Assembly (NCBI GenBank): GCA_013298595.1
Contig: JAAFIG010000014.1
Location: forward strand, 1 to 64,000
DNA from: Deinococcales bacterium
GTDB taxonomy: Bacteria; Deinococcota; Deinococci; Deinococcales; JAAFIG01
Direction of reading: 5' to 3'
DNA length: 64,000 bases
Position numbers and translations under genes: made by a program. Below, piece by piece: positions 12,199 through 31,132 of this stretch. The stretch's first letter is position 1. Every line of letters starts with the position of its first letter. The notes beneath the pieces were generated by a model. The model was not told the DNA's origin. It did no database searches and saw only the letters and a program-made list of their open reading frames with translations.

Positions 12199-12254
12199 AC
12201 CCTGTCAGATAACAAAAAAACGTAAGGGCTGCTTTATCTCACAAAGGAAAAATC

Positions 12255-13811
12255 ATGAAAAAATATTCAAATATCATTGGTGGGAAATCCGTCTCGAGTC
12301 AAAAAACCTTCCTGAGTCGTAACTCGAGCAACCTCGAAGATATCCTTGGTGAATTCCCCGATGCTAACCTCGAGCAGGTACGTGAAGCCTGTATCGCTGC
12401 TAAGCAAGGGTTTGATGTTTGGCGTAAAACACCAGCGCCAATTCGTGGACAAATTATTGGCAATATTGGCAAAGCCATCGAACGTGAAAAAGAAGCTTTA
12501 TCCCAATTGCTTAGTCGTGAAATGGGTAAAACCTTAAAAGAAGCTCGAGGCGATGTTCAAGAAGCCATTGATACTTGTCATTTCTTTCAATCAGAAGGAC
12601 GCAGATTATACGGTCAGACCGTACCTTCGGAGATGCACAACAAAGAATTATCCACTTACCGCCGTCCGTTAGGCGTGGTTGGCGTGATTACGGCTGGGAA
12701 TTTCCCTGTGGCAGTACCAAGTTGGAAAATAATCCCCGCTTTGGTAACGGGTAACAGCATTGTTTGGAAACCATCCGAAGATGCTGCTGCAACCAGTTAT
12801 GCCTTTGCTAAATTACTCGAGGAAGGCGGCTTACCAGACGGTGTGCTAAACGTGGTTTTTGGTGGTGGCGCAGGCTCCACTGGCGAATTCTTAGTACAAA
12901 TGATGGACGAAAAGCGGCTTAACAAAATTGCTTTTACGGGTAGCACCGCTGTCGGACGCAAAATTGGTGAAGTGGCAGGGCGTAATTTATCGCACCCAAC
13001 ACTCGAGTTAGGTGGTAAAAACCCAATGATTGTCATGCGTGACGCTGACCTTGATAATGCCGTAGCAGGTGCACTCTGGGCAGCTTTTGGCACAGGCGGG
13101 CAGCGCTGCACCAGCCTTGGTAACTTAATTCTGGATGAACCAATTCATGATGCTTTTATCGAAAAATTTCTCGAGAAAGTCAAAACCATCAAAATTGGCG
13201 ATCCCATAAAACACGAGGATGTCCTGTACGGACCATTCATCAATGAGCGTTTCTACAAAGCCTGGGATGCCCATTACGACATGGCAAAAGCCGATGGTGC
13301 AACATTGCTGCACGGCTCGAGACGCATTACTGATACCAATAAAGACAACTTTATTGGTGACCCAAGCACAGGTTTTTTCGGTTCACCAACCGTTTGGGCT
13401 GGTGTCACCAAGGACATGGATATCTTTAAAACCGAAGTTTTTGGACCAACAGTCAGCATTGTCAAAGTCAATGGCATAGATGAAGCTATCGAAACTGCCA
13501 ACAGTGTAGATTATGGTCTCTCGAGTGCGATTTACACCAATAACCGCATGTGGGCGTACCAATTCAAAGATCAGATTCAAGCTGGTATGAGCAGCATCAA
13601 CAACAGCACCACAGGTGCCGAAGCCCATATGCCATTTGGTGGCGTTAAAGGTTCTGGCAATGGCACAAGGGAATCAGGAATTTGGGTGATTGAAAGTTAC
13701 ACTTACTGGCATGGCGTTAACGACGAACTGAGTGGTAAATTACAACTTGCTCAAATGGACACCGAATACGGCGAAGTCAAACAAGCTTTTGATGTCTCGA
13801 GCTTGATGTAA
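12255..13811 (+). CDS. aldehyde dehydrogenase, likely aminoadipate-semialdehyde/piperideine-6-carboxylate type
   Basis: ELGGKNPMIV, FGTGGQRCTS catalytic motifs; ALDH7-like; RBS AAGGAA. Confidence 0.9.
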   Translation: MKKYSNIIGGKSVSSQKTFLSRNSSNLEDILGEFPDANLEQVREACIAAKQGFDVWRKTPAPIRGQIIGNIGKAIEREKEALSQLLSREMGKTLKEARGDVQEAIDTCHFFQSEGRRLYGQTVPSEMHNKELSTYRRPLGVVGVITAGNFPVAVPSWKIIPALVTGNSIVWKPSEDAAATSYAFAKLLEEGGLPDGVLNVVFGGGAGSTGEFLVQMMDEKRLNKIAFTGSTAVGRKIGEVAGRNLSHPTLELGGKNPMIVMRDADLDNAVAGALWAAFGTGGQRCTSLGNLILDEPIHDAFIEKFLEKVKTIKIGDPIKHEDVLYGPFINERFYKAWDAHYDMAKADGATLLHGSRRITDTNKDNFIGDPSTGFFGSPTVWAGVTKDMDIFKTEVFGPTVSIVKVNGIDEAIETANSVDYGLSSAIYTNNRMWAYQFKDQIQAGMSSINNSTTGAEAHMPFGGVKGSGNGTRESGIWVIESYTYWHGVNDELSGKLQLAQMDTEYGEVKQAFDVSSLM

Positions 13812-13826
13812 TCTGAGTTGCAAACT

Positions 13827-13857
13827 AAAAGGGCAAACAAAACGTTTGCCCTTTTTT
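13827..13857. terminator. Rho-independent terminator
   Basis: AAAAGGGCAAACAAAACGTTTGCCCTTTTTTC. Confidence 0.9.
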
Positions 13858-13885
13858 CATTTATTACTTGGTAAGGGATGCTTCA

Positions 13886-14962
13886 CTAAAGCATTGGCTT
13901 GATAGCTGCCATAAACGCATCAAATCCCGCAAAATCTAATTGTTGTTGATTATCAGATAATGCTGTGGCAGGGTCTGGGTGAACTTCAACATGCACACCA
14001 TCTGCACCTACAGCCAAAGCTGCTTTTGCTAACGGAATTAAAATATCGCGTCGTCCTGCGGCATGCGTTACATCCACAATGATTGGCAAGTGCGTCTCGA
14101 GCTTAGCCACTGCAACTGCACTGATGTCCAATGTGTTACGAGTGGCTTTTTCAAAAGTACGGATACCACGTTCACAAAGCACAATTTGATTGTTGCCTTC
14201 GGATAAAATATACTCAGCTGTCAGTAACCATTCTTCGATGGTACTCGAGAAACCACGTTTTAAAAGCACTGGCTTACCGCTTTTACCAACTTCACGGAGT
14301 AACGCAAAGTTTTGGGCATTGCGTGTACCAACTTGCAGCATATCGGCGTATTCGGCACAAACAGCAACGTCTCTTGTATCCATGACTTCAGCCACAAATA
14401 ATAATCCGTATTCCCTTGCTGCTTTTGCCCCTATCTCGAGACCTGGTACGCCCAAGCCTTGGAACCCATAGGGGCTGGTGCGTGGCTTGTAGGCACCACC
14501 ACGAAACATGGTGATGCCATGCTTTTTCACAATTTCGGCAGCACCCATGGTTTGTTCTAAACTTTCGATACTGCAAGGTCCTGCAATCATGGTTTTCGCA
14601 CCGCCACCAAATTGCACCGATACATTACCTCTCGAGATGATAATCGCACTATCTTCAGCTTTGGTTTTACGGCTGTATTTCAGTTTTGGTTTATCTTCGC
14701 GTTCTTCAAGATCAAGACTGGCTTTGAAAATCTCTTTGAACAATTGCTTAATGGTGCCACTCGAGAACACACCAGGGTTCGCCTTCTCGAGTTGTTCGAG
14801 CATCTCCGATTCGCGTTTAGGATCAAAGTGTCCGATACCTAGTTCTGTTTGTCTAGCACCAATTTTTTTCACAGCTTCGGCGCGTTTTGAGAGGGCGTGA
14901 AGTATCTCGAGGTTAATGCTGTCAACTTCGGTACGTAATGCAGCTATTGTTTGGTCAATCAT
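13886..14962 (-). CDS. aroF: bifunctional chorismate mutase / 3-deoxy-7-phosphoheptulonate synthase
   Basis: N-terminal chorismate mutase (LRTEVDSINLEILHALSKRAEAVKKIG) fused to a DAHP synthase core (MIAGPCSIES, FRGGAYKPRTSPYGFQGLG). Confidence 0.92.
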   Translation of the reverse strand: MIDQTIAALRTEVDSINLEILHALSKRAEAVKKIGARQTELGIGHFDPKRESEMLEQLEKANPGVFSSGTIKQLFKEIFKASLDLEEREDKPKLKYSRKTKAEDSAIIISRGNVSVQFGGGAKTMIAGPCSIESLEQTMGAAEIVKKHGITMFRGGAYKPRTSPYGFQGLGVPGLEIGAKAAREYGLLFVAEVMDTRDVAVCAEYADMLQVGTRNAQNFALLREVGKSGKPVLLKRGFSSTIEEWLLTAEYILSEGNNQIVLCERGIRTFEKATRNTLDISAVAVAKLETHLPIIVDVTHAAGRRDILIPLAKAALAVGADGVHVEVHPDPATALSDNQQQLDFAGFDAFMAAIKPML

Positions 14963-15044
14963 GATACTTTCCTTTTTTGACCTGCGGTATTCTACCGTAG
15001 GGACGGGGCTTGCCTCGCGTTGTAAACGAGTTTTCTATACCAAT

Positions 15045-15068
15045 AAAAAACTTCGGCAAAAGCCGAAG
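15045..15068 (-). terminator. Rho-independent terminator downstream of tatC
   Basis: Reverse strand CTTCGGCTTTTGCCGAAGTTTTTT. Confidence 0.75.
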
Positions 15069-15177
15069 CGTAAAAGGCATCTCGAGTTTTTTCTCTCGAG
15101 TGCCTTAGGTTGTATACCAGTATGCGTTTTGCATATCTCGAGGGTAACGTGTGGCGTGGGGGTTTGTCAACTACTGG

Positions 15178-15969
15178 TTAATCATCTTCCTCGAGTAAAC
15201 CCTTAGCTGCAAGAACCGCATTTTGGCGTTCTGCCAGTTTAGCAAGGAAAATACCGACTTCATACAATAAAATCAGTGGCACACTCGAGATTGCAAGGTT
15301 TACAGGGTCAGTTGTCGGTGAAACCACAGCGGCTAATACCACAATACCAAAAACCGCAATTCGTCGTTGGGCAATAAAAAATCGGCTCGAGATAATACTA
15401 ATTTTTGCCAATAAAAACATGATAACGGGTAGTTGAAACAGTATCCCAAACATCGCAAGTGGCGTGATGATATCGGTGATGTAATCACCAATTGTTAATG
15501 TGGCTTTGACACCTGGTAAAAAGTCAATTAAAAACTGTAAAGCAATTGGTAGGGCAATAAAGTAGGCAAACGAAATGCCTGCGATAAAAGCAATGATCGA
15601 ACCGCCAATAAATGGCACAGCGTAACGGCGTTCACGTCGGGTTAAACCTGGCGAAATAAATGCCCATAATTGAAAAATTAGTACAGGCATAGCCAGTATT
15701 AAACCACCAAAAGCTGCCACTAAAAAGGAAGCTGATAGCTGCTCGGTCACACGTAAGGAGACCAACTCTACAGCAATCCCCTTGGTTTTGCTGTACGCCT
15801 CGAGTGGGCGTTTGAGAATATCAATGGCTGTGGCTAAATTGGCAAATGTAATCCCTGTGCCAACAATCCAAGCGACTGCACTCCAAATGATACGAAAGCG
15901 CAACTCCTCGAGATGGTCAATCAGCGGAGCTTCTTTAAAATTTTCCGATTGCAATTCCTTGCTTGCCAT
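15178..15969 (-). CDS. tatC: Sec-independent protein translocase TatC
   Basis: PLIDHLEELRFRIIWSAVAW and six hydrophobic helices. Confidence 0.95.
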   Translation of the reverse strand: MASKELQSENFKEAPLIDHLEELRFRIIWSAVAWIVGTGITFANLATAIDILKRPLEAYSKTKGIAVELVSLRVTEQLSASFLVAAFGGLILAMPVLIFQLWAFISPGLTRRERRYAVPFIGGSIIAFIAGISFAYFIALPIALQFLIDFLPGVKATLTIGDYITDIITPLAMFGILFQLPVIMFLLAKISIISSRFFIAQRRIAVFGIVVLAAVVSPTTDPVNLAISSVPLILLYEVGIFLAKLAERQNAVLAAKGLLEEDD

Positions 15970-15978
15970 ACGCGGGCG

Positions 15979-16191
15979 TTACGCCTTATCGGAGGCGCTG
16001 TTGTTGGTGACAGGTTTTGGATCATCTTTAAAGCTATCATCTAACTCAGCACGGATGTCTTTACTGGCTTTTTTGAACTCACGGATACCTTGCCCCAGTC
16101 CTTTACCCAGTTCTGGAAGGCGTTTTGCTCCAAAGAATACAAGTGCGAGTACTAAAATCACGATGATTTCGAGCGGTCCAATGTTTGGCAT
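15979..16191 (-). CDS. tatA: Sec-independent protein translocase TatA/E
   Basis: PNIGPLEIIVILVLALVFFGAKRLPELGKGLGQGIREFKKA. Confidence 0.95.
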   Translation of the reverse strand: MPNIGPLEIIVILVLALVFFGAKRLPELGKGLGQGIREFKKASKDIRAELDDSFKDDPKPVTNNSASDKA

Positions 16192-16294
16192 GGTAATTCT
16201 CCTTATGAATGAGTTTCGAGTTGTTTCGTCAGCTCTTAGTCAAATCGTACTCGCAATTCATGAAGTTGAGATGGAGTTTTGACCCGAAAAGTTC

Positions 16295-17731
16295 CTAACT
16301 TGGTTTACGTGACTCGAGCCACTTTCGGATGATGGGTAATTTACCCGCTTTAGCAGTCTCGAGTTTTCGAGTCCAGTACTTGATTGCCCAACCATCTAAG
16401 GTTTTTTGTGTGGCTCGAGTGACTCCAAGTGCACCTTCAGTCAGGTCGGTGGTGAGGGTACTGCCCGCTGCAACAAAAGCACCTTGGTGAATGGTTATTG
16501 GAGCAACCAGTGTGACGTTGGTGCCAATGAATGCGCCATCTTCGACTGTTGTGCGGTGCTTATCGAGTCCATCAAAATTAGCGGTAATCGCTCCTGCCGA
16601 GAAATTGACCTCGCGTCCAATGCTGGCATCGCCAATGTACGCCAGATGCCCTGCTTTGGCACCCTCGAGCAAATGCGAATTCTTGATTTCGACAAAATTA
16701 CCAATGTGCACACCCGCCTCTAGCAGTGTACCTGGGCGGATTCGTGCGAACGGTCCGATATCTGTGCCATCTTGTACCACTGCACCTTCAACAACGCTAT
16801 GTGGTTTGACTACCACAGCGCCTTCAAGTTGCGAATCGGTGACGATGCTGTACGCCCCAATGAGGCTACCTGTGGCAATATGGGTTGTGCCTTGTAACAT
16901 TACACCCGCCTCGAGAATGACATCATTTTCGATGGTGACTGTATCGTCTATGTAGATGGTGTTTGGGTCTCGGAGGGTGACACCATTTCGCATATGCTTA
17001 ACTCGAATTCGGTCGCGTAATACCTTGTCAGCAGCGGCTAGTTGCACACGGTCGTTACTACCCTCGAGTTCGCTAGAAGCAGCTATTTGGGCTACCACAG
17101 GTTTGTTATGCTGGCGGTACAACTCGAGGATATCGGTTAAGTAATATTCTTTCGCTGCGTTGTTATTGCCAATTTGAGCTGCGAGTTGGAAAGCACTCGA
17201 GTCAAAAATGTACATACCACTGTTCCATTCCCGAATGGCTTTTTCGGCTTCAGAAGCTGCTTTTTGTTCAACAATACGAATCACTTCGTTGTGCTCATTG
17301 CGAACAATTCGTCCGTAACCTGTTGCATCCTCAAGCACACCAGTGATGACTGTCATACCAGCTTTGGCGGCTCGGTGTGCAGCTAGGGCATTGTGCAAGG
17401 TTTCTCGAGTCATTAAAGGCGTATCGCCATACAACACAAAAACATGACCTGTATGACCATGCAAAGCACCTTGGGCACACAAGAACGCATGCGCTGTACC
17501 TAGTTGCTCTGTCTGCCGCGCAAAAACAATTGGTTCTGCTGCAAAATGGGCTTCGATTGCCTCTGCACCATGTCCTGTAATGACCACGATTTTGCTTGCC
17601 TCGAGTTCTTTGGCACGTTCGATCACATGCCCAAGCAGTGGTCTGCCGGCTGCTTGGTGCAACATCTTAGGCATCGCACTTTTCATGCGAGTTCCTTGCC
17701 CAGCAGCTAAAATAACAACTGCTAAACTCAT
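16295..17731 (-). CDS. glmU: bifunctional GlcNAc-1-P uridyltransferase / GlcN-1-P acetyltransferase
   Basis: VVILAAGQGTRMKSAMPKMLH nucleotidyltransferase start and C-terminal hexapeptide repeats. Confidence 0.96.
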   Translation of the reverse strand: MSLAVVILAAGQGTRMKSAMPKMLHQAAGRPLLGHVIERAKELEASKIVVITGHGAEAIEAHFAAEPIVFARQTEQLGTAHAFLCAQGALHGHTGHVFVLYGDTPLMTRETLHNALAAHRAAKAGMTVITGVLEDATGYGRIVRNEHNEVIRIVEQKAASEAEKAIREWNSGMYIFDSSAFQLAAQIGNNNAAKEYYLTDILELYRQHNKPVVAQIAASSELEGSNDRVQLAAADKVLRDRIRVKHMRNGVTLRDPNTIYIDDTVTIENDVILEAGVMLQGTTHIATGSLIGAYSIVTDSQLEGAVVVKPHSVVEGAVVQDGTDIGPFARIRPGTLLEAGVHIGNFVEIKNSHLLEGAKAGHLAYIGDASIGREVNFSAGAITANFDGLDKHRTTVEDGAFIGTNVTLVAPITIHQGAFVAAGSTLTTDLTEGALGVTRATQKTLDGWAIKYWTRKLETAKAGKLPIIRKWLESRKPS

Positions 17732-18762
17732 ATGGCTGGTGGCTCCGCAGCTGTGCTCGAGATCAGATTTTTGGGATCTGGTTTAGGTTCTGGCACACCT
17801 TCCCAAGGCTGCTCGGGTTGATTCTTAATGCGTTGCAGCATAACGATACAGATAATAATCAGTGGAATACTAAAGAGTTGAGTGGTAGTAAAAAAGCCAA
17901 TGCCAATATCAGTATTTTCGTAGACTTTCCATGAAAGCGGGTTGAGCCGAAATGTTTCTTCGACACCAGCCCGCATAACGCTATACCAAAGCAGCGTATT
18001 CCAGAAAACCCAACCCGGTCGTCTCGAGCGCAACCAATAAAAAATGGCAATTAATAAAATCACACCAATAAAAATGCCGTACACTTGGGTTAAATGCACT
18101 GGTCCACGAATTGTTTCGGCTACTTGGCAAATAGGTGTAACAATCACTTCACCACTTGGTAATTTACATAATCCTGGCATACCCGCCCAGTTTCGGTCTG
18201 CTTGGAAAATTCCAAGAATATCTGAACTGATATCTGGAAATGTCCAACCAATAGGTAACGTGGTCAAACGACCAATGGTATCTGCTCCATTAAAAAAATT
18301 GCCTAAACGTCCACCAATAATACCAAGGGCTAAACCGGGTGCGTACAAATCTACATATTGATAAAAATTGATACGGTAACGGCGGGCATAGTACAGCAAT
18401 ACAATGACACCAAGAATCACACCGCCATGAATTGATAAGCCACCCTCGCGGATGTTACCTATTTTGCCTAACCAAGAAAAAATCGTGTCTTGGCTGGTAA
18501 AACGAAAATTACTAGGGCTGGTCAACACATAACCCAGACGAGCGCCAATCACACCCCAAACAACCGACCAGAACACCATATCGGATAATAAATTGGTATT
18601 GAGTCCACGCCGTTCGGCAATGCGAGTGGCAAGCACCGCACCAATCATCACACCCATGGTGATAAGAACGCCGTACCAAGCAATAGAGAATCCACCTAAA
18701 CCAGACAGGAGGAATACGCCTTTGAGAAAATCATCGGGGAGTTTAAAAATTTCAGGATGCAC
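17728..18762 (-). CDS. lgt: prolipoprotein diacylglyceryl transferase (GTG start)
   Basis: GGLSIHGGVILGV, LALGIIGGRLGNFFNG; GTG start 6 nt after TATAAT. Confidence 0.94.
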   Translation of the reverse strand: MHPEIFKLPDDFLKGVFLLSGLGGFSIAWYGVLITMGVMIGAVLATRIAERRGLNTNLLSDMVFWSVVWGVIGARLGYVLTSPSNFRFTSQDTIFSWLGKIGNIREGGLSIHGGVILGVIVLLYYARRYRINFYQYVDLYAPGLALGIIGGRLGNFFNGADTIGRLTTLPIGWTFPDISSDILGIFQADRNWAGMPGLCKLPSGEVIVTPICQVAETIRGPVHLTQVYGIFIGVILLIAIFYWLRSRRPGWVFWNTLLWYSVMRAGVEETFRLNPLSWKVYENTDIGIGFFTTTQLFSIPLIIICIVMLQRIKNQPEQPWEGVPEPKPDPKNLISSTAAEPPAI

Positions 18763-18852
18763 CTATCAATTATAAACTGCTTTGTGAGGCAATGCAGAGA
18801 AATAAAAAAAGCAAACCAAAGTCTGCTCTTTTTTCAAGTATCTTTGGGATTA

Positions 18853-19467
18853 TCATTCAGCGGCAATTTTCATTAAACCAGTCTCGTCACGTAGGATAAT
18901 TTTGCCATAACCACTGTCAATCACACCTTCTCGAGCAAGTTCGCCAATCACTTTTGTGACAGTTTCGCGCACCGAACCGACAGCAGCAGCAAGTTCATCG
19001 TGTGTTGCTTGGATTTGTTTTTGTCCATCTGGGCGTAAACTACCGAGTGCTGTTTCGGATAGTTCGAGGATAGAAGCTGCAATTCTGGCACGTAATCGTT
19101 TACCAGCCAATCTTGAAATAGTCACATAACTGCGATTCAAGGCTTCTGCTAGTCTGGCATTTAAATTCAAAGCAATTTCTGGAGTAATGAGGTTAACCGA
19201 GAAAATTTCGACAATGCTTTCTGTGACACTTTCAGCAAAGTGTTGGCGCTCGAGTCCTGCCAAGGCTTCTTCACCAAAGAAATCTGTGGGTTTAACATAG
19301 CGTAATGTCAATCCATTACCCTCGTTATCCATTGTGTGTAAGCGAACAAGTCCGCTTTTTAAACGGTAGATACTATCGGCTTTTCCTGGAAATAGAATAA
19401 TTGCTCCAGGTCTGTATTGAACACTGTCCATGCTTTGACTCCGGGTTACAGTACGTTCGAGGATCAT
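18853..19467 (-). CDS. Crp/Fnr family transcriptional regulator
   Basis: Cyclic-nucleotide-like N-domain plus HTH THDELAAAVGSVRETVTKVIGELAREGVI. Confidence 0.92.
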   Translation of the reverse strand: MILERTVTRSQSMDSVQYRPGAIILFPGKADSIYRLKSGLVRLHTMDNEGNGLTLRYVKPTDFFGEEALAGLERQHFAESVTESIVEIFSVNLITPEIALNLNARLAEALNRSYVTISRLAGKRLRARIAASILELSETALGSLRPDGQKQIQATHDELAAAVGSVRETVTKVIGELAREGVIDSGYGKIILRDETGLMKIAAE

Positions 19468-19695
19468 AAAGATTCCTTATTAACTGAAGAGAAAGTGCTT
19501 TTTCGGACTGTCCGAAATTTTGCATTCAGTTCGTTATGCTCGAGTCTATGGATGATTGATTTTTTTTGCAAACACTTTTCTTGTTGTATGCTTGCCACTT
19601 TTTGTACAGAAAAGCGTATTTTTGCGTCTATCACAGGGTAAATGAGATATAGTTTTGTATTACAATCTTAATCAAATCTTTATCTATTTTGCATC

Positions 19696-19745
19696 GTAGA
19701 ACATCACGCGTTGAAGTCTGGTAACGCGTGAAAATAGCGTTCTAC
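19696..19745. promoter_or_regulatory. large intergenic stem-loop/dyad of unknown role
   Basis: GTAGAAC-at-TCACGCGTT-...-AACGCGTGA-...-GTTCTAC nested inverted repeats. Confidence 0.5.
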
Positions 19746-19866
19746 ACAAAATTATTCGGCACGGCTAAAAACTTTATCAACTAAAGTTCAGTAAGTCCAT
19801 TTACTTGTCTGGAACAAGTGATATTGTACAAAAAGCAGCTTGATACCAAATTTAGTGTAGCCTAAA

Positions 19867-20502
19867 TTACAAAGTGCTTTGGTGATGCTCTGCCCAAACC
19901 CTAAAATTCTCGAGCATTTTCAGACCAACCAATTGCGATTTTTCAGGATGAAATTGGGTCGCATGTACATTGCCACTCGAGACCACACTAACAAACGGCA
20001 AACCATATTCGGAAACAGCACCATTTGATGTTAAACCCATTGGCACATAATACGAGTGCACAAAATAGGCAAAAGCATTTGCATCTAAACCTGTTAACAA
20101 CGGACTCAAGCCGATTTGTTCAAGTTTATTCCACTGCATTTGTGGCACAGGTAAACCCTTAGGAAAACGCTTTAAATGCCCAGACAACAAACCCAAACCA
20201 GACAAATCCGATTCTTCACTCGAGTCGTACAAAATCTGCATCCCGACACAAATCCCCAGAAATGCTCTATTAGCAGCGATATGTGCTCGCACCACCGTTT
20301 CAAACCCAGAAGCCATAAATGCTTCCATCACTTGCCGAAAATGCCCCTGTCCAGGCAACACCAAAGCATCCGCATCCAAAGCATCTAAAGGGTTACTCGA
20401 AACAAGTAAAGTATGACCATGACTGTTAAAACCCGCAGCCTCGAGCGCCTTAGCCGCACTGTGCAAATTGCCTGAGCCATAATCAATCAGCAGTGTTTTC
20501 AC
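19867..20502 (-). CDS. hisH: imidazole glycerol phosphate synthase subunit HisH
   Basis: DYGSGNLHSAAKALE, LPGQGHF, FLGICVGMQILYDSSEE, HATQFHPEKSQLVGLKMLENF. Confidence 0.95.
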   Translation of the reverse strand: MKTLLIDYGSGNLHSAAKALEAAGFNSHGHTLLVSSNPLDALDADALVLPGQGHFRQVMEAFMASGFETVVRAHIAANRAFLGICVGMQILYDSSEESDLSGLGLLSGHLKRFPKGLPVPQMQWNKLEQIGLSPLLTGLDANAFAYFVHSYYVPMGLTSNGAVSEYGLPFVSVVSSGNVHATQFHPEKSQLVGLKMLENFRVWAEHHQSTL

Positions 20503-20526
20503 AAGGCAGAGTATAATGCAAAAATC

Positions 20527-22572
20527 ATGACAACCAAATACCGTGCCTGTAACTTATGCGAAGCTATCTGTGGACTCGAGATTGAACTCGAGGGCGACAA
20601 AGTCATCAGTATTCGAGGCGATGCTGCCGATCCGTTTTCCAAAGGACACATTTGCCCTAAAGCCACGGCACTGGGCGATATGTACACCGACCCCAATAGA
20701 CTTCGCACCCCAATTCAGCGCACAGCCACAGGTTGGGAAAGTATTTCTTGGCAAACAGCCTTTGACGAAGTTGCCAGCAAACTCAGCACCATCAAAGCTC
20801 GAGACGGTGCGAATGCCATTGCTTTTTTTATTGGCAACCCGGCTGTCCATAACTCTGGAACGCTGCTATCCATGCCAAGCCTAATGCGGGCTGTTGGCTC
20901 GAGTAACCGCTATTCTGCCACCAGTGTTGACCAATTACCACAACAAGTAATGAGTGGCTTAATGCTGGGAAATCCAAATTTACTGCCTGTACCTGACCTG
21001 AGTCGAACAAAATACTGGTTGATTTTAGGAGCAAACCCGCTCGCAAGCAACGGCAGTTTAATGACTGCCCCAGGAGTCAAAGATCATCTGAAAAATATTC
21101 AAACTCGAGGTGGCAAAGTTGTTGTCATAGACCCACGTCGCACCGAAACTGCCAAAGTTGCCACCGAGCATGTATTTATACGCCCGAGCACCGATGCCTT
21201 TTTACTCCTTGCCATGATTCACGTTTTGTTTGCCGAAAATTTGGTCAAAATGGGTAAACTCGAGCATTTTACCGATGGACTCGAGGAAATTCGCACTGCC
21301 GTCAAACACTTCACACCAGAACGGGTTGCCAAAAAAACAGGGATTGCCAGCGAAGATATCAAACGTATCACCCGAGAATTCTCGAGTGCCGAAAGTGCTG
21401 TGGCGTACGGACGCATTGGTTTATCTATTCAGAAATTTGGTGCAGTGTGTCAATGGCTTGTTTACGCACTTAATATGCTTACAGGCAATTTTGACCGCGC
21501 AGGCGGCATGATGCTGCCCTCACCTGCTTTTGAAACTGTCCGCAGCAAAGGCGATTGGCTCTTTGGACGCAGCCATACTCGAGTGCGTGGATTACCCGAA
21601 ACCAATGGTGAATTCCCTGTTGCAGCCTTAGCCGAAGAAATCCTCACCGAAGGACAAGACCAAGTGCGTGCCTTTGTGATTACTTGCGGCAATCCAGTCC
21701 TATCCACACCAAACGGCACAAAACTCGAGACAGCCCTAGAATCACTCGAGTTTATGGTTGCCATAGACCCATATATTACAGAAACAACCCGCCATGCACA
21801 CATTATTTTGCCACCCGCTATGGGACTCGAGACAAATCATTACGATGTGACATTCCTTTCTTTAGCTGTACAAAACTATGCAAAGTACAGCCAAGCAACA
21901 ATTCCCAAAGCTGAAAATGCCATGTATGACTGGGAAATTATTGGCGAACTAGCACAACGAATGGGTGGCGATGCCCCCCGAGACCCAGCCGAAATAATTG
22001 ATGCAGGACTGAAACGCGGACGCTATCAACTCAGCCTCGAGCAGCTCAAAGCTAACCCACATGGCATAGACCTTGGAGCGCTAACCGAACAATTCCCTGA
22101 ACGAATTCAAAATCCAGAAAAACGGATTCGACTCGCACCAAGTTTGGTACTTAGCGACCTCGAACGCCTCGAGAACGACCTTGAGACAAAAAACGAAGGC
22201 TATATTTTAATCGGCAGACGGGAACTCCGCAGCAACAACTCTTGGATGCACCATGTAAACCGCCTCAACCGCGATCAACCACGTTGCACTGCGATCCTTC
22301 ACCCAGAGGACGCAAAAACCCTTGGCGCAACCAATGGCACGAACTTACGCATTTCTTCGAGAGTCGGCAGTGTCACCATCCCACTCGAGATCAGTGCAGA
22401 CATGGCTCGAGGTGTCATCAGCATCCCACACGGCTACGGACACGCAACTCGAAACGACGTAGCCAACCATGCCAAAGGCGTTAGCATCAACGACTTAACC
22501 GACGAACTCGAGCTTGATATCTCAGGGAATGCTGCTCTGAACGGCACTCGAGTCACCATCGCTTTGGCATAG
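20527..22572 (+). CDS. molybdopterin (bis-MGD) oxidoreductase, DMSO reductase superfamily
   Basis: CNLCEAICGLEIELEGDKVISIRGDAADPFSKGHICPKA 4Fe-4S motif; VVVIDPRRTETAKVATEH; VRAFVITCGNPVLS. Confidence 0.92.
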   Translation: MTTKYRACNLCEAICGLEIELEGDKVISIRGDAADPFSKGHICPKATALGDMYTDPNRLRTPIQRTATGWESISWQTAFDEVASKLSTIKARDGANAIAFFIGNPAVHNSGTLLSMPSLMRAVGSSNRYSATSVDQLPQQVMSGLMLGNPNLLPVPDLSRTKYWLILGANPLASNGSLMTAPGVKDHLKNIQTRGGKVVVIDPRRTETAKVATEHVFIRPSTDAFLLLAMIHVLFAENLVKMGKLEHFTDGLEEIRTAVKHFTPERVAKKTGIASEDIKRITREFSSAESAVAYGRIGLSIQKFGAVCQWLVYALNMLTGNFDRAGGMMLPSPAFETVRSKGDWLFGRSHTRVRGLPETNGEFPVAALAEEILTEGQDQVRAFVITCGNPVLSTPNGTKLETALESLEFMVAIDPYITETTRHAHIILPPAMGLETNHYDVTFLSLAVQNYAKYSQATIPKAENAMYDWEIIGELAQRMGGDAPRDPAEIIDAGLKRGRYQLSLEQLKANPHGIDLGALTEQFPERIQNPEKRIRLAPSLVLSDLERLENDLETKNEGYILIGRRELRSNNSWMHHVNRLNRDQPRCTAILHPEDAKTLGATNGTNLRISSRVGSVTIPLEISADMARGVISIPHGYGHATRNDVANHAKGVSINDLTDELELDISGNAALNGTRVTIALA

Positions 22573-22597
22573 GGGTTAGTTTTAATGTATCTTTTTT

Positions 22598-23794
22598 CTA
22601 TGGTTTGAAACCATCGAGCAACTTCGAGAATTCTTCGGGTATTTTTACATGGGTTAGTTTGGCAATAAACGGCAATGCTGTTTTCATACCTCGTGCCGTG
22701 GGTTTGAAATCCTTATGGCTTGAAAGTGGATTGAGCCAGATAATACCAGCCGATTGGCGTTTCATTTCTCGCATTGCAACCTCAAGAACTGAGGTTTCTC
22801 CAACATCTAAACCATCACTTGAGATGATGACTAAGGTATCAGGTGTGAGCACTCGAGCTGCATGTTCGCGCAAGAAAATTCGCAAATTATCACCAATTCG
22901 GGTACCACCTCCCCATGCTGCTTGCAGGTCAGGTAGCTCGAGACGGCGTTGATAAAAAAATTGGGTGATATCGGTTAGTGCAGTTGAAAATGTGAAAACA
23001 TCAACCCGACGTGAACGCTGCGCTAAGGCATACGCAAATTGCAACACTGGTTGCGTATGCTCAAGCATCGAACGACTACCATCAAGTAACAAAACAATAC
23101 GTGGGTTGCGTTTTGGATATCCAAGCCAAAACGGTTGTAATGGTTCACCACCAGTGGTCAAACTTTTTCGCAGTGTTTTACGAAAATCAAAACGCAAACC
23201 AGCAGCCATTGAACGCCACTTTCTCGAGCGACCCAAACGTAAATCCCGCACCACTTGCGCTGCTGCTAAAAGCATGGAATCTAACCCAGCAGCATGAACT
23301 TTTGGTGCTTCAGAAGGGCTATGTGAAGCACTGAACAAACCTCGCAAGAAACGTTCGGCTGGCGTGGCATCAGGATCGTCATCATCAGGGCGGTGCTTGG
23401 CTTTAGTACCAACAAAATCGGGGTCTTGTTCGGGATGATCAGACTGAGGTTGTTCTTTTGGCTCGAGACTTGGACTATTGGCAGGTTTATCAGTGATTTT
23501 CTGTGGTTGCGCTTCGGGAGGCAATAGAATTTGTGGAACTCCCTGACGTTCAGGAAAGAAAAAATGTTGAAATGCCTTATCAAAAACTTCAAGATCCTCG
23601 AGTTTTGCACAAGTCACGATGCGTAATGCAGATTGCAAAACTTCACGACCCGCAGGTAAATCTATGATCTCGAGCGAACAAATCGCATCTGCCACTTCTC
23701 CGACACCAATTTTAAATTGATGCTCGAGGCGTAAGACTTCGCAAAACGCTGCAATTTTTTCAAGCAATGCCATGTTAAATGCAAACCCCGCCAC
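22598..23794 (-). CDS. coxE: VWA domain protein, CoxE-like
   Basis: RIVLLLDGSRSMLEHTQPVLQFAYALAQRSRRVDVFTFSTALTDIT (MIDAS-like); downstream of a MoxR ATPase in a cox cluster. Confidence 0.85.
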   Translation of the reverse strand: MAGFAFNMALLEKIAAFCEVLRLEHQFKIGVGEVADAICSLEIIDLPAGREVLQSALRIVTCAKLEDLEVFDKAFQHFFFPERQGVPQILLPPEAQPQKITDKPANSPSLEPKEQPQSDHPEQDPDFVGTKAKHRPDDDDPDATPAERFLRGLFSASHSPSEAPKVHAAGLDSMLLAAAQVVRDLRLGRSRKWRSMAAGLRFDFRKTLRKSLTTGGEPLQPFWLGYPKRNPRIVLLLDGSRSMLEHTQPVLQFAYALAQRSRRVDVFTFSTALTDITQFFYQRRLELPDLQAAWGGGTRIGDNLRIFLREHAARVLTPDTLVIISSDGLDVGETSVLEVAMREMKRQSAGIIWLNPLSSHKDFKPTARGMKTALPFIAKLTHVKIPEEFSKLLDGFKP

Positions 23795-24720
23795 TACGAT
23801 TTTATGGTGACTGTACCGATACCAAAATCAGTCTCGAGTTGTTTTCGCTGCCCAATTTCCTCATTCCAAATTTTTTCCAGTGCAGGTAAATTATGCTCGA
23901 GCAACACCCAATCCTCGCGGGCTTTGAGAATACAACCTCGAGTCAGCATGACTGTACTGGCATCTAAGGCATCGTGGTGCAAATTCATCAATGCCAACCC
24001 CCAATCAAGGGTTTCGGCAACGCCAGGCACCTTATGAAACGGCAAACGCCGCAATGCCTCCATAACCTTGGCAATTTGCACAGCCAGCTTTTGATTGATA
24101 CTAGGCAAACGCGCCCGTAAAATCTCGAGTTCTTGCGCTGTGCTCGGGTAGGATTGCCACAAGTACAAACAGCGCCGCCGCAACGCATCTGACAATTCTC
24201 TCGAGCGATTACTGGTCAGAATCACCCGTGGGCGGTGTTTGGCTTTAATTGTGCCAAGTTCAGGAATCGAAATTTGAAACTCAGCTAATAACTCCAGCAA
24301 AAACGCTTCAAACGCCTCATCAGCCCGATCAACTTCATCGATTAGAAGCACAGGCGCAACATCTTGCGAAATCGCCTCAAGCAGCGGGCGTTTCAGCAAA
24401 AACGCATCGGAAAAAATTTGTGCCTCACGTGCCTCAAGCGACCCCTCGCCTTCGGTCATACGAATTCGCAACATCTGCTTAGGATAATTCCACTCATACA
24501 AGGCACTTGAGACATCCAAACCCTCGTAACACTGCAAACGGATTAAACGCGTGCCCAATGCCTCAGCCAGCACTTTTGCACTCTCGGTTTTACCAACACC
24601 CGCAGGACCTTCAATCAGCAGCGGTTTCTCGAGTGACAACATTAATTGCAACGCAACCGCAAAATCATCAGAAGCAACGAAGCCTTTCTCGACAAATTTT
24701 GCACGCAAATCCGCAATCAT
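23794..24720 (-). CDS. coxD: MoxR-type AAA+ ATPase, CoxD-like
   Basis: LLIEGPAGVGKTESAKVLAEAL Walker A; PVLLIDEVDRADEAFEAFLLELLAE Walker B. Confidence 0.9.
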   Translation of the reverse strand: MIADLRAKFVEKGFVASDDFAVALQLMLSLEKPLLIEGPAGVGKTESAKVLAEALGTRLIRLQCYEGLDVSSALYEWNYPKQMLRIRMTEGEGSLEAREAQIFSDAFLLKRPLLEAISQDVAPVLLIDEVDRADEAFEAFLLELLAEFQISIPELGTIKAKHRPRVILTSNRSRELSDALRRRCLYLWQSYPSTAQELEILRARLPSINQKLAVQIAKVMEALRRLPFHKVPGVAETLDWGLALMNLHHDALDASTVMLTRGCILKAREDWVLLEHNLPALEKIWNEEIGQRKQLETDFGIGTVTIKS

Positions 24721-25892
24721 GCACGCACCGATAAAAACTTCTCTGGGTCTTTGAGAAACCGTCTTTTACAGTTGGCACAAGTAAAGTAATACCTCGAACC
24801 AGCATAATCCGTAAAATGCACAGCCGCTGCGATCTCGATGCGTTCGCCATCAACAGGTGAAATGGCAAACCCTGAGTCAAGACCTTTTTCGGAAATAGAA
24901 TCGTCATTCGCAGCGAGACCATGTAGGTCTCCTGTACCTGTTTTTAACGTTTGTAGGGGCGAATCTTGTATTCGCCCTGTGACTGATAATGAATCAACAG
25001 TCACCGCATTGGTAGCTGGGCGAACATGAAGTTCGCCCCTACGAATTTCCGGATTTTGATAATTGCTTGAGTTCGTGAACATCGGTTGGCTCGAGTCTCT
25101 CACCTTGATGATTTCTGCCAGAATACTAACCGCTACTTCGGCGGGGGTCTTGGCATTGATGTCCAACCCCGCAGGGTTACGAACGGTCGCCACTTTCTCG
25201 GAGGGAACGCCTTGTAACTCGAGCAGTTCGCGCACGGTCACAGCGCGTTTGCGACTGGCAAGCAGCGATACAAATCCAACATCTGCCAACAGCAACGCCT
25301 CGAGAACAGGCTCATCGTAATGCCCTTGGGTGGCAACCACGGCGGCTAGACTCATCCGAGTTTCCAAAGTTAAATTCTCAAGAAAAACGGGTAAATCCGT
25401 CAGTGCCACGGCTGTATTTGGTTCGAGGTCTTGCAGTTCGGCTTGGGTGACAATTCGCACAATTTTATACTCGAGCAGGGCTGCCATGCGTGTTACAGCC
25501 TCAGCGACTGGTGTAAAACCTGCCACCAGCAAAAGTGGTGCAGGGGTGTGTGGCTCGAGATAAACATCCACTGCACCTTCAGAAGCACAAGTCATGGGAA
25601 CAACAATGCTCTCGGCATCGGCTGCATGTTGCAAAATCTCGAGACTGGCATCTGGGCGAATCAGGACAAGGCGGGGCTTACCTGTTTGTAGTGTCTCGAG
25701 GGCTTGTTTTCGCACAATTTCACGGCTGCATGAACCGCCAACAAAACCTTGCATTCGCCCATCGGCAAATACCAAAGCACGATCCCCCAGATGCGAGGAA
25801 ACAGGTGCTTTTCTCGAGACAACTGTGGCAATCACAAAGCTCAAGCCAGCATTTTTAAGGTCAAGGACAGTTTGATAAAAATCGGTATTCAT
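24717..25892 (-). CDS. XdhC/CoxI family protein with C-terminal YHS-like domain
   Basis: XdhC pattern (SSHLGDRALVFADGRMQGFVGGSCSREIVRKQAL) and C-terminal ISPVDGERIEIAAAVHFTDYAGSRYYFTCANCKRRFLKDPEKFL. Confidence 0.85.
   Translation of the reverse strand: MNTDFYQTVLDLKNAGLSFVIATVVSRKAPVSSHLGDRALVFADGRMQGFVGGSCSREIVRKQALETLQTGKPRLVLIRPDASLEILQHAADAESIVVPMTCASEGAVDVYLEPHTPAPLLLVAGFTPVAEAVTRMAALLEYKIVRIVTQAELQDLEPNTAVALTDLPVFLENLTLETRMSLAAVVATQGHYDEPVLEALLLADVGFVSLLASRKRAVTVRELLELQGVPSEKVATVRNPAGLDINAKTPAEVAVSILAEIIKVRDSSQPMFTNSSNYQNPEIRRGELHVRPATNAVTVDSLSVTGRIQDSPLQTLKTGTGDLHGLAANDDSISEKGLDSGFAISPVDGERIEIAAAVHFTDYAGSRYYFTCANCKRRFLKDPEKFLSVRA
24914..25043. repeat. composite palindromic repeat embedded within the XdhC-like coding sequence
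   Basis: GAGACC..GGTCTC; GTAGGGGCGAATCTTGTATTCGCCCT; GTGACTG...CAGTCAC; GGGCGAACATGAAGTTCGCCCCTAC; outer ends are inverted repeats of each other. Confidence 0.8.
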
Positions 25893-25946
25893 AGGGTTCC
25901 TTAGTCGTTTTGCAACCTGACCAGAACTAAAGCAGTGATGTATTCT

Positions 25947-26648
25947 TTAATGAAATCCATAGTCAAACGCCTTATCGCCTTGGGTGCCATGCACTTGGGC
26001 ATTGAAAGAAATAATGATGCGGTCTTTGTCGCCGTCGTAGGGCATGGCTTTGTGATTCAGCCAACTAGGAAAAACAATCAAGTCACCTGCTTTTGGAATG
26101 ACATCAAAATTGCTTTGCTGCAAGTACGCATTACCTAAATCCATGTGCGCTCCGCCAAGTAACCCAAGCTGATGCCCGTAAAAACGTGTAATACCATTGG
26201 TAGCTCCAAGCATCGCATGGTCTTGACGACGTTCGAGCGAGTCTATTTGTACGTAATACACGCCGCTCCAAGAGCAATTGCCGTGATTATGAATATCGTG
26301 GAAACCATAGCGATTGGCAATTTGAAACCATGCTCCAACAATGTGCATTTGCAATTTACTCGCACCAATACTTTGCCAAATACCAGCATTCATCTCAGAT
26401 GCAATCTGAAAAACACTTTCAGAAACAAATGCAAACAACTCTTTGATGCTCGAGTGCTCGTACCTTTGCAACAAATCATCACTCGAAGAATACAAATTCC
26501 CTTGTTTTGCACCTCGAGCTTCTAAATCGGTTTTGCGCTGTGCATAGAATAATTCGATCAAATCGGCATTGATGGTTTCAGCGTTCTCGAGTGAGCGTCG
26601 CAAAATTGGAGTTGCCCAGTGCATCGAAATATTTGGGGTTACATTCAT
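25947..26648 (-). CDS. putative 2OG-Fe(II) oxygenase
   Basis: FHDIHNHGNCSWSGVYYVQ ... GDLIVFPSWLNHKAMPYDGDKDRIIISFNAQ, cupin/2OG HxN...H...R pattern. Confidence 0.78.
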   Translation of the reverse strand: MNVTPNISMHWATPILRRSLENAETINADLIELFYAQRKTDLEARGAKQGNLYSSSDDLLQRYEHSSIKELFAFVSESVFQIASEMNAGIWQSIGASKLQMHIVGAWFQIANRYGFHDIHNHGNCSWSGVYYVQIDSLERRQDHAMLGATNGITRFYGHQLGLLGGAHMDLGNAYLQQSNFDVIPKAGDLIVFPSWLNHKAMPYDGDKDRIIISFNAQVHGTQGDKAFDYGFH

Positions 26649-26666
26649 GACGTGCCTCTCGAGGAT

Positions 26667-28041
26667 TTAGTTTTGCTTAGCATATAATCTTCCACCTGCT
26701 CGCAACCAAACTATTTGATTTTGGTCGTTGCGAAGGTATTCGTATTTACTGCCTTTGAGTTCGGTGTCCAAAAGCACAATAGTGTCTTGCGGTAACAAGG
26801 CACACGTCGCCACTGGTGGCGGTGGAGCTGGCGTGACAGTCACACTCGAGACATCACCAAGTTTGACACTGCGTTTTAATTGCTTATTCTCGAGATAAAA
26901 TTCGAGCGTCGTACCAAAAGCCGCACCAACAAAACTACCAGTATATGCCTCGAGTTCAGATTCGGTTGGCTCGAGTACTTTGCTTTCTGGTTCTTTTAAG
27001 CCTAGGAATTCTTCTTGAATCCAAGCACTTAATTCGTTATTCAGCAATGTGCCTTTGTCAGAGTTTGTCAGAATTGTACAAGCAAAATTGGCTTCTGGGA
27101 CAATCCAAAAAGCACTCATCTGCCCATTTGTCGCACCACCATGTGATAAGACTCGAGTTGTGCCATTGCCATTTTTCCAAGGTACATCTCGCACAAACCA
27201 AGTGACCGCAAATTGATTACCCAAAGCACCTTTAACCGTTGGTGTTTGCATCACCTGCAACGTCTGATTTTGTAACAGAGGCGCACCATCACCCAAATGA
27301 AACTGGGCATATTTAAGTTGATCGAGCACACTCGAATTCAACCGACCAATTGGTGCAATGGCTCGAGCAAATGCCCAAGGACGACTGATTTGCACTTGTC
27401 CGCTGGCATCCACAAAATGCCCAACAGCAAAGCGCTCGAGCATCGTTTCGGCTGGAAAAAAATGAGATTTTGTCATACCCAACGGCTCGAGGATCATTTC
27501 TTGGGCAACTTGTTCATACGTTTTGCCACTCATTACTTCGATGATTCGTCCAGCAATGCCAAAACCAGCATTGTTATAGTGCCAAATAGTTCCAGTAGCA
27601 GTGACTTGTGGTTGCTTTATCACACCTTGAACGTATTTCTCGAGGGCATCATCACCATCACCAGTATCAGAAAACAAATCACCAACCCAACCACCCGTGT
27701 GATTTAGGAGTTGCCGCACCGTCACCTGTGCTGCTGTTGCTTCGTCAGCTAATTGCAAATCAGGTAAGTAACGCCGAACAGGAGCATCCAACTCGAGCTT
27801 ACCCGCCTCGACTAAACGCATGATAATTGTACCTGTGATGGTTTTGGTGGTTGAACCAATCTGAAACAAGGTATCTCGAGTGATCTCCAAAGGATGAAAC
27901 CGATGTGTCACACCCTCGCAGATTGTGTACTCCAAACCATCCACAATCAACCCAAGTGCCACTCCAGGAATCCGCAAACGAGCCATCCCCTCGAGCAAGC
28001 GCTCACGCAACAACACCAGTTTGTTTATCAGATCAACCATT
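26667..28041 (-). CDS. serine hydrolase (beta-lactamase class C / S12 family)
   Basis: QIGSTTKTITGTIIMRLVEAG (SxxK), YNNAGFG (YxN); start placed at 28041 (MVDLINKL). Confidence 0.9.
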
Positions 28042-28066
28042 AAAACCTCAAGATACCAATACTTGC

Positions 28067-28519
28067 TTACCCCTGCTCCGCCATACGGGTTTTGACATTG
28101 GCAAAAGTACCAGCAATCAATTTCTGAGCTTGGGCATCGAGTACCCGTCCGCCCACAGTTGCAATCGGACCACGCATGGTTGCTGCCCCACTCCAATTGA
28201 GCGTTGTAGTGTTATTACCATTATCAATAATATCGGCACCAGCCAGCAAATCCACTACGCTACCAAAACCACCACCATTGATTTTGACATTCATCCGCTG
28301 CCCATCGGCTTGAGGCTCGAGCGTAATCTTAAACTTAAAACTGCCACGTACAGGTCCTAAACCAATACTGACCGTTGCATCAAAATTCGTCGCGTCATGA
28401 ACCACCACGGTTTTAACATCAGGCAAACAAGAAGCTACCTTCTCAGGGTTATTGATAAACGCCCAAACAGCATCCTTACCAAGAGGAACTTGTTCCGTAC
28501 CATTATATTCAAGTTTCAA
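28067..28519 (-). CDS. coxG: carbon monoxide dehydrogenase subunit G (SRPBCC family)
   Basis: YNGTEQVPLGKDAVWAFINNPEKVASCLPDVKTV is typical of CoxG. Confidence 0.88.
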   Translation of the reverse strand: MKLEYNGTEQVPLGKDAVWAFINNPEKVASCLPDVKTVVVHDATNFDATVSIGLGPVRGSFKFKITLEPQADGQRMNVKINGGGFGSVVDLLAGADIIDNGNNTTTLNWSGAATMRGPIATVGGRVLDAQAQKLIAGTFANVKTRMAEQG

Positions 28520-28685
28520 AAAATCACTCCTTTACGACAAATCAAATAAAAAATATTTCCGAACCAACCCTCCAGCGTAGCAAATTTGGGGGAGGATAAC
28601 GAGCCTAAGCGAGTTGGGAGAGGGGTTAACTATTCACCTTCTTTTAGTTAAGCCTAGTCTCGAGGTATGGCTTTAGGTTTGGCTG

Positions 28686-28748
28686 GTAGGGGCGAGGTGT
28701 GCCTCGCCCCTACGGTGAAATTAGGGTGAGGCACGTCTCACCGCCACG
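28686..28748. repeat. dispersed palindromic repeat
   Basis: GTAGGGGCGAGGTGTGCCTCGCCCCTAC followed by GGTGAGGCACGTCTCACCGCCACGG between coxG and coxL. Confidence 0.75.
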
Positions 28749-28756
28749 GTTTATTT

Positions 28757-31096
28757 TTAATCAGCGGCGAGGGCTTCGGCGTTACGAATGGCACTCCAAA
28801 CTTTTTCTCGAGTCAGTGGCATATCGATATGCTTTACCCCAAGTGGTGAGAGGGCATCTATGACGGCATTGACGAAGGCGGCTGGACTGCCAACGTTGGG
28901 GCTTTCTCCGACGGATTTCGCTCCGATGGGATGGTGCGGGCTGGGGGTGACAGTATGCCCTGTTTCCCAACTTGGTGACTCGAGACTGGTTGGCACGAGG
29001 TAATCGGTGAAGTTGGTGGCTAAATTGTTGCCTTCGTCGTCGTAAGCAATTTCTTGCATAAAAGCAATCGCAAAGCCTTCGGTTAAGCCACCATGAACTT
29101 GCCCTTCAACGATCATTGGGTTGATGATCGTGCCACAGTCATCTATGGCTAAAAAGCGCCGAACTTTGGTTTCGCCTGTGTCTCGGTCTACGTCTACAAC
29201 TGCCACATAAGTGCCGTGAGGGAAAACCATGTTGGGTGGATCGTAGTACAACGTTGCCTCGAGTCCAGGTTCATTTTCGCCAGGGTTTGTGTAGGCAGCA
29301 AAGGCAATTTCTTGCATGGTGATGCTTTTACTTGGTGCTCCCATGACGTTAAATTTGTAATCTTTCCACTCAAGATCGTGTTCGGAAACCTCGAGCACGT
29401 GGGCAGCAATTTTGCGGGCTTTTTCACGGATTTTTCGTGCTGCTAGTGCCAATGCGCCACCTGCAACGGGTGTGGAACGGCTGGCATACGTGCCTAATCC
29501 GTATGGTGCAGTGTCAGTATCGCCTTCTTCAACCAAGAAATTTTGTGGGTCTAAACCGAGTTCTTCGGCAACAATTTGCGCCCAAGTGGTTTCGTGACCT
29601 TGACCTTGAGATTTTGAACCAGTGCGAATAATGCCTGAACCACTGGGATGAATACGAATTTCGGCACCGTCAAACATTTTAATACCAAGAATATCAAAGT
29701 GCTTACTAGGACCAGCCCCTGTCACTTCGGTAAAGGTTGAAAGCCCAATGCCCATTAACTCGCCTCGAGCACGTTTCTCAGCTTGCTCTTTGAGCAGTTC
29801 TTTGTAACCAATTCGCTCGAGGGCAACGTTCATGGTTTTTTCGTAATCGCCGCTGTCGTAAATAAAATTAAGTGGCGATTGGTACGGGAATTGCTCGGGT
29901 TGGACAAAGTTTTTGCGGCGTAGTTCGGCTGGGTCTATTTTCAATTCGTCAGCTAGAATATCCATTGCTCTTTCGATCGCGTAACTGGCTTCGGTGACAC
30001 GGAAACTGCAACGGTATGCCACACCACCAGGCATTTTATTGGTGAAGTACGCATCTAAATTGGCATACGCGTTGGGGAAATCGTAACTGCCTGTAACAAT
30101 GCCAAACATACCAGCGGGATATTTGCTTGGGTCAGCGGCTGCGTCAAAAGCTCCGTGATCGGCAACTGTGTTGACTTTTAAGGCTGTTACTTTACCTTCT
30201 TTGGTCGCGCCAATTTCAATATCCATATGGTAATCCCGCGCAAAACTCGAGGTTAGGTTCTCAGTGCGGGTTTCGATCCATTTGACTGGGCGTTTTAAGA
30301 CCAACGCACCCGCAATGGCACAGACATAGCCTGGATAAACTGGTACTTTGTTACCGAATCCACCGCCAAGGTCTGGACTGATAACCCGAATTTTATCTTC
30401 TGGAATTCCGAGCACCAAAAATAAAGCCGTGCGGTAAACATGTGGCGCTTGCGAAGTCACATAAAATTGTAAGCGACCCATTGCATCAAATTCGGCAATA
30501 CAACCACAAGTCTCAAGTGGCGCGGCGTGACAACGCTGAAAAGTCATATGTTGCTTAACTACGTGATCAGCAGCCTCGAGTGCGGCATCGGTTTCGGCTT
30601 TTTTGCCAACATTCCAATTAAAAATATGGTTGGTGGCATTCTCGCGGTCTGGACGCAGAATCACTTCATCGGTCATCGATTTATATGGGTCTGCCATGAC
30701 GGGCAGTGGTTCGTAATCCACTTCGACGAGTTCTGCCATGTCGTAAGCGGCTTCTCGAGTTTCGGCATACACGGCTGCCACTTCTTGATGCTGGTACAAC
30801 ACTTTGCCATCGGCAAGCACCATTTGTTTGTCTAAACCATGAAAGGTTGGTAGCCATCCGACTTTGTAAGCGTTCAATTCTTTGCTGGTCACAACAGCGA
30901 CAGCACCCGGTATTTCCATCGCAGCGCTCGAGTCTATACCGCGAATATTGGCATGTGGATACGGACTATGTACCAATGCCATCCAGAGTTGATTGGGCAA
31001 ATTGATGTCGTCTATATAGTTACCTTTGCCTTGCAGGAAACGCGGGTCTTCTTTGCGTTTCATAGATTTTCCCATCGCGTGTTTTTCAGTTGTCAT
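28757..31096 (-). CDS. coxL: aerobic carbon monoxide dehydrogenase large subunit, form I
   Basis: Molybdopterin hydroxylase large subunit; active-site loop VAYRCSFR matches form I AYXCSFR; GQGHETTWAQI. Confidence 0.95.
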   Translation of the reverse strand: MTTEKHAMGKSMKRKEDPRFLQGKGNYIDDINLPNQLWMALVHSPYPHANIRGIDSSAAMEIPGAVAVVTSKELNAYKVGWLPTFHGLDKQMVLADGKVLYQHQEVAAVYAETREAAYDMAELVEVDYEPLPVMADPYKSMTDEVILRPDRENATNHIFNWNVGKKAETDAALEAADHVVKQHMTFQRCHAAPLETCGCIAEFDAMGRLQFYVTSQAPHVYRTALFLVLGIPEDKIRVISPDLGGGFGNKVPVYPGYVCAIAGALVLKRPVKWIETRTENLTSSFARDYHMDIEIGATKEGKVTALKVNTVADHGAFDAAADPSKYPAGMFGIVTGSYDFPNAYANLDAYFTNKMPGGVAYRCSFRVTEASYAIERAMDILADELKIDPAELRRKNFVQPEQFPYQSPLNFIYDSGDYEKTMNVALERIGYKELLKEQAEKRARGELMGIGLSTFTEVTGAGPSKHFDILGIKMFDGAEIRIHPSGSGIIRTGSKSQGQGHETTWAQIVAEELGLDPQNFLVEEGDTDTAPYGLGTYASRSTPVAGGALALAARKIREKARKIAAHVLEVSEHDLEWKDYKFNVMGAPSKSITMQEIAFAAYTNPGENEPGLEATLYYDPPNMVFPHGTYVAVVDVDRDTGETKVRRFLAIDDCGTIINPMIVEGQVHGGLTEGFAIAFMQEIAYDDEGNNLATNFTDYLVPTSLESPSWETGHTVTPSPHHPIGAKSVGESPNVGSPAAFVNAVIDALSPLGVKHIDMPLTREKVWSAIRNAEALAAD

Positions 31097-31113
31097 ATCA
31101 AAACTCCTTGGCT

Positions 31114-31132
31114 TGGGCGAGGCATGCCTCGA
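31114..31132. repeat. dispersed palindromic repeat (GGGCGAGGCATGCCTCGA)
   Basis: Perfect palindromic core GAGGCATGCCTC between coxL and coxS. Confidence 0.5.

Follow-up and report, generated by a model that had tools for sequence, protein, structure and literature searches.

CTCGAG behaves like a highly iterated palindrome across the genomes of uncultured Deinococcales bacteria

Results

CTCGAG is extremely abundant in a Deinococcales genome and several of its relatives

In a group of uncultured relatives of Deinococcus and Thermus, the palindromic hexamer CTCGAG occurs about every 170 bases, roughly 50 to 90 times more often than expected, in genes, between genes and in every reading frame. 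The enrichment is strong enough to make Leu-Glu the most over-represented amino acid pair, which indicates that something acting on the DNA itself is making or keeping the word. Our starting point was a 64,000-nt stretch of genomic DNA (hereafter the window), in which CTCGAG occurs 382 times, whereas dinucleotide shuffles give 7.1 copies on average and at most 14. Among palindromic hexamers, the next commonest has 47 copies. The window is part of a 4.58-Mb, 68-contig genome (G000) that contains 27,159 copies, but only 15 copies of the word read backwards, GAGCTC. The features discussed below are listed in Table 1.

Table 1. Coordinates of features in the window and in the rest of the genome
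Position	Strand	Feature	Details
1..64000	.	CTCGAG array	382 copies spread over the whole window (6.0 per kb); G000:C6:1-64000
20527..22572	+	Molybdopterin oxidoreductase gene, 681 aa	18 CTCGAG sites; frame 0 (CTC GAG, Leu-Glu): 20575, 20587, 21259, 21280, 21724, 21745, 21826, 22036, 22168, 22384, 22507; frame 1 (nCT CGA Gnn): 20798, 21104, 21578, 22406, 22547; frame 2 (nnC TCG AGn): 20898, 21381
20575..20592	+	Two in-frame CTCGAG (20575, 20587)	Coding LE-I-E-LE of GLEIELEGD
20798..20803	+	CTCGAG in frame 1	GCT CGA G, KARDG
20898..20903	+	CTCGAG in frame 2	GGC TCG AGT, GSSN
3200..4588	+	argH	14 CTCGAG sites (9/2/3 by frame)
12255..13811	+	Aldehyde dehydrogenase (P5C dehydrogenase-like) gene used to name the lineage	Relatives in MAGs titled Deinococcales bacterium and Trueperaceae bacterium (518-aa alignment)
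61143..61232	+	tRNA-Ser(GGA)	Structural RNA gene without CTCGAG
24953-24981 and about 28683-28715		Dispersed inverted repeat GTAGGGGCGA...TCGCCC	19 copies of its GTAGGGGCG start in 460 kb of G000, also matched in G001-G003
L021:1444-2571 (G000:C15:67964-68851)		HpaII-like C5 methyltransferase	An overlapping 503-aa PF01170 ORF follows; also L023, L022
G000:C34 about 76.2-80.5 kb (L096)		CTCGAG-free island	Low-GC polysaccharide biosynthesis genes
G000:C66 about 77.6-81.1 kb (L104)		CTCGAG-free island	HEPN plus GmrSD defence pair

The word is similarly abundant in three other genomes of the same family (f1), with 26,619 copies in G001, 27,118 in G002, and 28,178 in G003, and in two genomes from one genus of a sister family (f2), with 21,868 copies in G012 and 14,690 in 1.9 Mb in G016. 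In these relatives, GAGCTC is found 2-25 times. We refer to G000-G003, G012, and G016 as the HIP genomes, after the highly iterated palindromes (HIP) of cyanobacteria. Two other members of f2 have 13,552 copies (G008) and only 683 (G004). Relative to dinucleotide expectation in the sampled stretches, enrichment is 55x in G000, 40x in G001, 16x in G002 (GC 60%), 35x in G003, 47x in G012, and 30x in G016, in all of which CTCGAG is the top 6-mer, whereas it is 8x in G008, 11x in G015 and 0.5x in G004. In the HIP genomes, density stays at about 6-9 per kb while GC ranges from 45 to 60%. These genomes are MAGs, sampled at 30 to 460 kb each for composition and with naive ORF calls. In 111 genomes of the class, a weaker excess is widespread, for example 11,982 against 257 in G068 and 12,737 against 802 in G104. 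The latter, a 48% GC genome in a third family (f3), displays an intermediate form, with frames 40/4/10 against 4.3/0.7/0.9.

CTCGAG is enriched independently of reading frame and shapes protein sequences

A first-pass annotation had noted that CTCGAG occurs in all three frames of the molybdopterin oxidoreductase gene and encodes most Leu-Glu pairs in argH, and had interpreted this as selection or mutation bias acting on DNA. The examples it gave are correct. In the molybdopterin oxidoreductase gene, the 18 sites fall 11/5/2 in the three frames, whereas synonymous-codon shuffling within the gene predicts 1.42/0.51/0.06 (p=0.0005, 0.0005, and 0.0015 from 2000 shuffles). In argH, for which 1.02/0.26/0.24 sites are expected, 9 of 13 Leu-Glu pairs are CTCGAG, although Leu not before Glu uses CTT 11, TTG 8, TTA 8, CTG 6, CTC 4, and CTA 2 times, and Glu not after Leu uses GAA 24 and GAG 3 times. 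What could not be seen from single genes is that the same holds for the whole window, the whole genome and a clade.

Indeed, across 366 ORFs in 460 kb of G000, the frames hold 1293/545/430 sites against 147/64/22 after synonymous shuffling within genes, i.e. all three are enriched (8.8x, 8.5x, and 19.8x). This test is conservative because the shuffle keeps codon counts that the word has already inflated. Non-coding density is nearly the same as coding density (5.42 versus 5.94 per kb). The word accounts for 66% of Leu-Glu, 62% of [SPAT]-R-[EDGAV], and 38% of X-S-[SR]. It drives not only codon choice but also amino acid choice. The proteins contain 1954 Leu-Glu against 849 expected (2.3x, z 37.9), the strongest of 400 dipeptides, followed by Ser-Ser, whereas the reversed pair Glu-Leu is at expectation. 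Leu-Glu is the top over-represented dipeptide in all six HIP genomes, but G004, which is without the word, has no such excess. Although about half of the in-gene sites are in frame 0, as would be expected from codon-pair or protein-level selection for Leu-Glu, this explanation is refuted by the shuffle test in frames 1 and 2. In addition, non-coding DNA is enriched as well, Glu-Leu is not in excess, and Leu-Glu not written CTCGAG is below the expectation for all Leu-Glu in G000 (666 of 1959, against 851 expected).

As a positive control, we applied a script of the same kind to 150 kb of a Nostoc plasmid (pANSO36A), which was used after an artificial HIP1 query against plasmids found nothing. 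HIP1 (GCGATCGC) was found at 553 per Mb, with frames 38/21/5 against 3.6/2.4/0.3, indicating that frame independence of about 10x is how a HIP looks in this test. CTCGAG is entirely absent from this sequence (18 expected). A plasmid of Allomeiothermus silvanus shows only 2.3x and is therefore not a useful model.

Sites are kept or re-made at orthologous positions

Next, we compared orthologues in G000 and G001, which share 80% protein identity but are near saturation at synonymous sites (fourfold identity 0.43). Conserved Leu-Glu that is CTCGAG in G000 is CTCGAG in G001 in 80 of 90 cases (0.89), against 28 of 51 when G000 lacks it. For X-S-[SR], the corresponding numbers are 25 of 30 and 12 of 27. 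Much of the conservation at Leu-Glu is high equilibrium use, because the probability of a site when there is none in the partner is already 0.38 to 0.80, and in frame 2 the split serine codon blocks create memory by themselves. When pooled over two independent genome pairs, the odds ratio for site memory is 4.7 (chi-square 38). Sites are thus both re-made often and remembered.

The word is sharply defined and its copies exclude each other at short range

With the sites masked from the null, CTCGAG is 92x its expectation in G000, whereas the best one-mismatch word (TTCGAG) reaches only 3.05x and transversions at positions 2 and 3 are mostly at or below 1x. No extended consensus is seen beyond modest biases of the flanking base. 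The chance of meeting the next site in G000 is 1.7-2.3 per kb below 20 bp and about 7 per kb beyond 75 bp, which is 3 to 4 times lower at short range. A dip at short distance appears in the other HIP genomes too, whereas Glu-Leu pairs show none. This exclusion could reflect hairpin avoidance, since two near copies form a 6-bp stem. Beyond 75 bp the hazard is flat, and no long-range regular spacing was seen. Six gaps over 1.2 kb exist in 460 kb of G000, and the two that we examined contain low-GC polysaccharide genes and a HEPN-GmrSD pair, as expected of recent arrivals.

These properties bear on two alternative explanations, both of which we consider unlikely. The first is pure context-dependent mutation bias with no recognizing function, which would be consistent with the nearly equal density in coding and non-coding DNA and with transition one-off words being the commonest neighbours. 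However, a six-base, strand-symmetric specificity with most core transversion neighbours depleted is hard to get without a protein reading the whole word, and short-range exclusion is not expected from context-free mutation. The second is that CTCGAG is a DNA uptake word driven up by biased natural transformation. Thermus and Deinococcus are probably naturally competent, uptake words can accumulate by molecular drive (PMC1939737), and islands that look acquired lack CTCGAG. On the other hand, 6 to 9 per kb is far beyond what kb-scale uptake fragments need, and there is no even spacing at that scale. Moreover, the known uptake sequences of Pasteurellaceae and Neisseriaceae, which are also short words over-represented genome-wide, are non-palindromic, have 9-10-bp cores, and are described with a gradual over-representation of mismatched forms (PMC1939737), whereas here it is nearly all-or-none.

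Other palindromes are depleted. All other palindromic hexamers together are at 0.30-0.48 of expectation in the HIP genomes, against 0.63-1.04 in the other relatives sampled. In G000, 25 of 64 are below 0.2 of expectation. GAGCTC, GCGCGC, ATGCAT, TTCGAA, and AGGCCT are almost absent, and GGCC is at 0.00-0.02 in G000, G001, and G003 (0.01 in G000). Palindromes closest to CTCGAG are the most depleted (median 0.21 versus 0.39 and 0.53). The Nostoc plasmid shows a milder version of this depletion (0.68).

Outcome of the METHYLTRANSFERASE test

High-frequency HIPs in cyanobacteria generally track cognate methyltransferases (PMC4390886). In the orphan methyltransferase model (Elhai 2015), the best-documented special case of a DNA-level process, an orphan enzyme would methylate the site, and methylation-directed mismatch repair or a function of the methylated site would create and keep it. 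CTCGAG methyltransferases exist elsewhere, an orphan enzyme in Nocardia (PMC4752239) and an m5C enzyme in Halorubrum (PMC8112702), and most HIP genomes hold several methyltransferases each. We searched five methyltransferase families in 16 genomes, and the XhoI endonuclease (PF04555) and an XhoI-linked methyltransferase in 111. No methyltransferase shared by all HIP genomes was found, although these MAGs are 58-94% complete, specificity cannot be read from sequence, and an enzyme of another family cannot be excluded. The one clearly vertical enzyme (L021 in G000; 74% identical in G001, 59% in G012) is HpaII-like, and a plasmid relative sits next to an HpaII-family endonuclease. Its target is hence probably CCGG, matching the depletion of CCGG to 0.06-0.23 in G000, G001, and G012.

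No XhoI endonuclease was found in any HIP genome, which argues against XhoI-type restriction-modification as the cause. XhoI/PaeR7I restriction-modification systems recognize the same word, but restriction seems to lower site counts, since carriers in one genus (g10) have 0.7-0.97 CTCGAG per kb against 1.65-2.0 in non-carriers. In three genomes (G018, G042, and G048), the XhoI endonuclease is next to a PF01555 methyltransferase, and CTCGAG density is about half that of their genus mates without XhoI. In G009, an XhoI endonuclease gene interrupted by stops is next to an M.XhoI-like gene, and relatives of that methyltransferase stand in several genomes without a PF04555 hit, which we infer to be Thermaceae-like from genome sizes and protein likeness. 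The XhoI-linked gamma methyltransferase has 43-53% relatives in seven genomes of other families but in no HIP genome (G002 best 26%), and carriers in another genus (g13) do not have clearly more CTCGAG than non-carriers. The XhoI-linked PF01555 methyltransferase has only weak relatives there, 23-28% over long stretches. CTCGAG also has no GpC, which the published G-meC repair model needs. We consider the orphan methyltransferase model possible but not likely.

Discussion

The interpretation of the first-pass annotation, that selection or mutation bias acts on the DNA, is supported by our findings, although which of the two is not settled; selection and a repair or mutation bias predict nearly the same patterns. 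By its behaviour, CTCGAG belongs with HIPs, which are exact palindromes with extreme over-representation (about 1000 or more per Mb) that are not bound to a codon frame (PMC4390886). We infer, with moderate confidence and without having identified the factor, that a dimeric protein reading the duplex hexamer (a modification, repair or chromosome-architecture factor) gives an advantage, or a repair bias, to alleles that carry the site. Near-cognate words would thus be repeatedly turned into CTCGAG, losses would be repaired or purged, and sites closer than about 20 to 50 bp would be disfavoured because of footprint or hairpin cost.

Like CTCGAG, HIP1 and the alternate HIPs of cyanobacteria (GGCGCC, GCSGC, RCCGGY, and GGGATCCC) are exact, clade-wide palindromes found in all codon frames, with other palindromes under-represented. 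There are, however, several differences. CTCGAG is found in another phylum, is a 6-mer with 67% GC and no GpC, whereas known alternates that replace HIP1 are at least 75% GC and all are from cyanobacteria, and it reaches about 5,900-9,200 per Mb against 500-2,500 per Mb reported for most HIPs (PMC4390886). It also makes Leu-Glu the top dipeptide, which HIP1 does not do for its own dipeptides in the Nostoc plasmid, and no cognate methyltransferase was found in the families searched. For the orphan CTCGAG methyltransferase of Nocardia, which is not tied to restriction, the reported signal is motif clusters near dnaA and not genome-wide iteration (PMC4752239). In the literature we searched, no paper describes a CTCGAG HIP or a HIP in Deinococcota.

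It is possible, although this remains tentative, that CTCGAG is the target of a methylation-independent, clade-wide DNA-reading system in Deinococcota (architecture, repair or recombination), whose pressure is strong enough to rewrite codon use and proteome composition. It would then be one of the densest sequence-specific landmarks in any bacterial chromosome and would show that HIPs arise convergently without the cyanobacterial enzymes.

The function and origin of HIPs is a long-standing question, for which the evidence came from one phylum. Weaker forms in relatives, some probably with cultured members, would make this question testable at the bench. An independent, several-fold denser case in Deinococcota separates what may be general (exact palindrome, frame independence, avoidance of other palindromes) from what is cyanobacterial (GATC/CGATCG methylases, GpC). 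It also shows a DNA-level signal bending protein sequence, which matters for codon, dipeptide and phylogenetic models.
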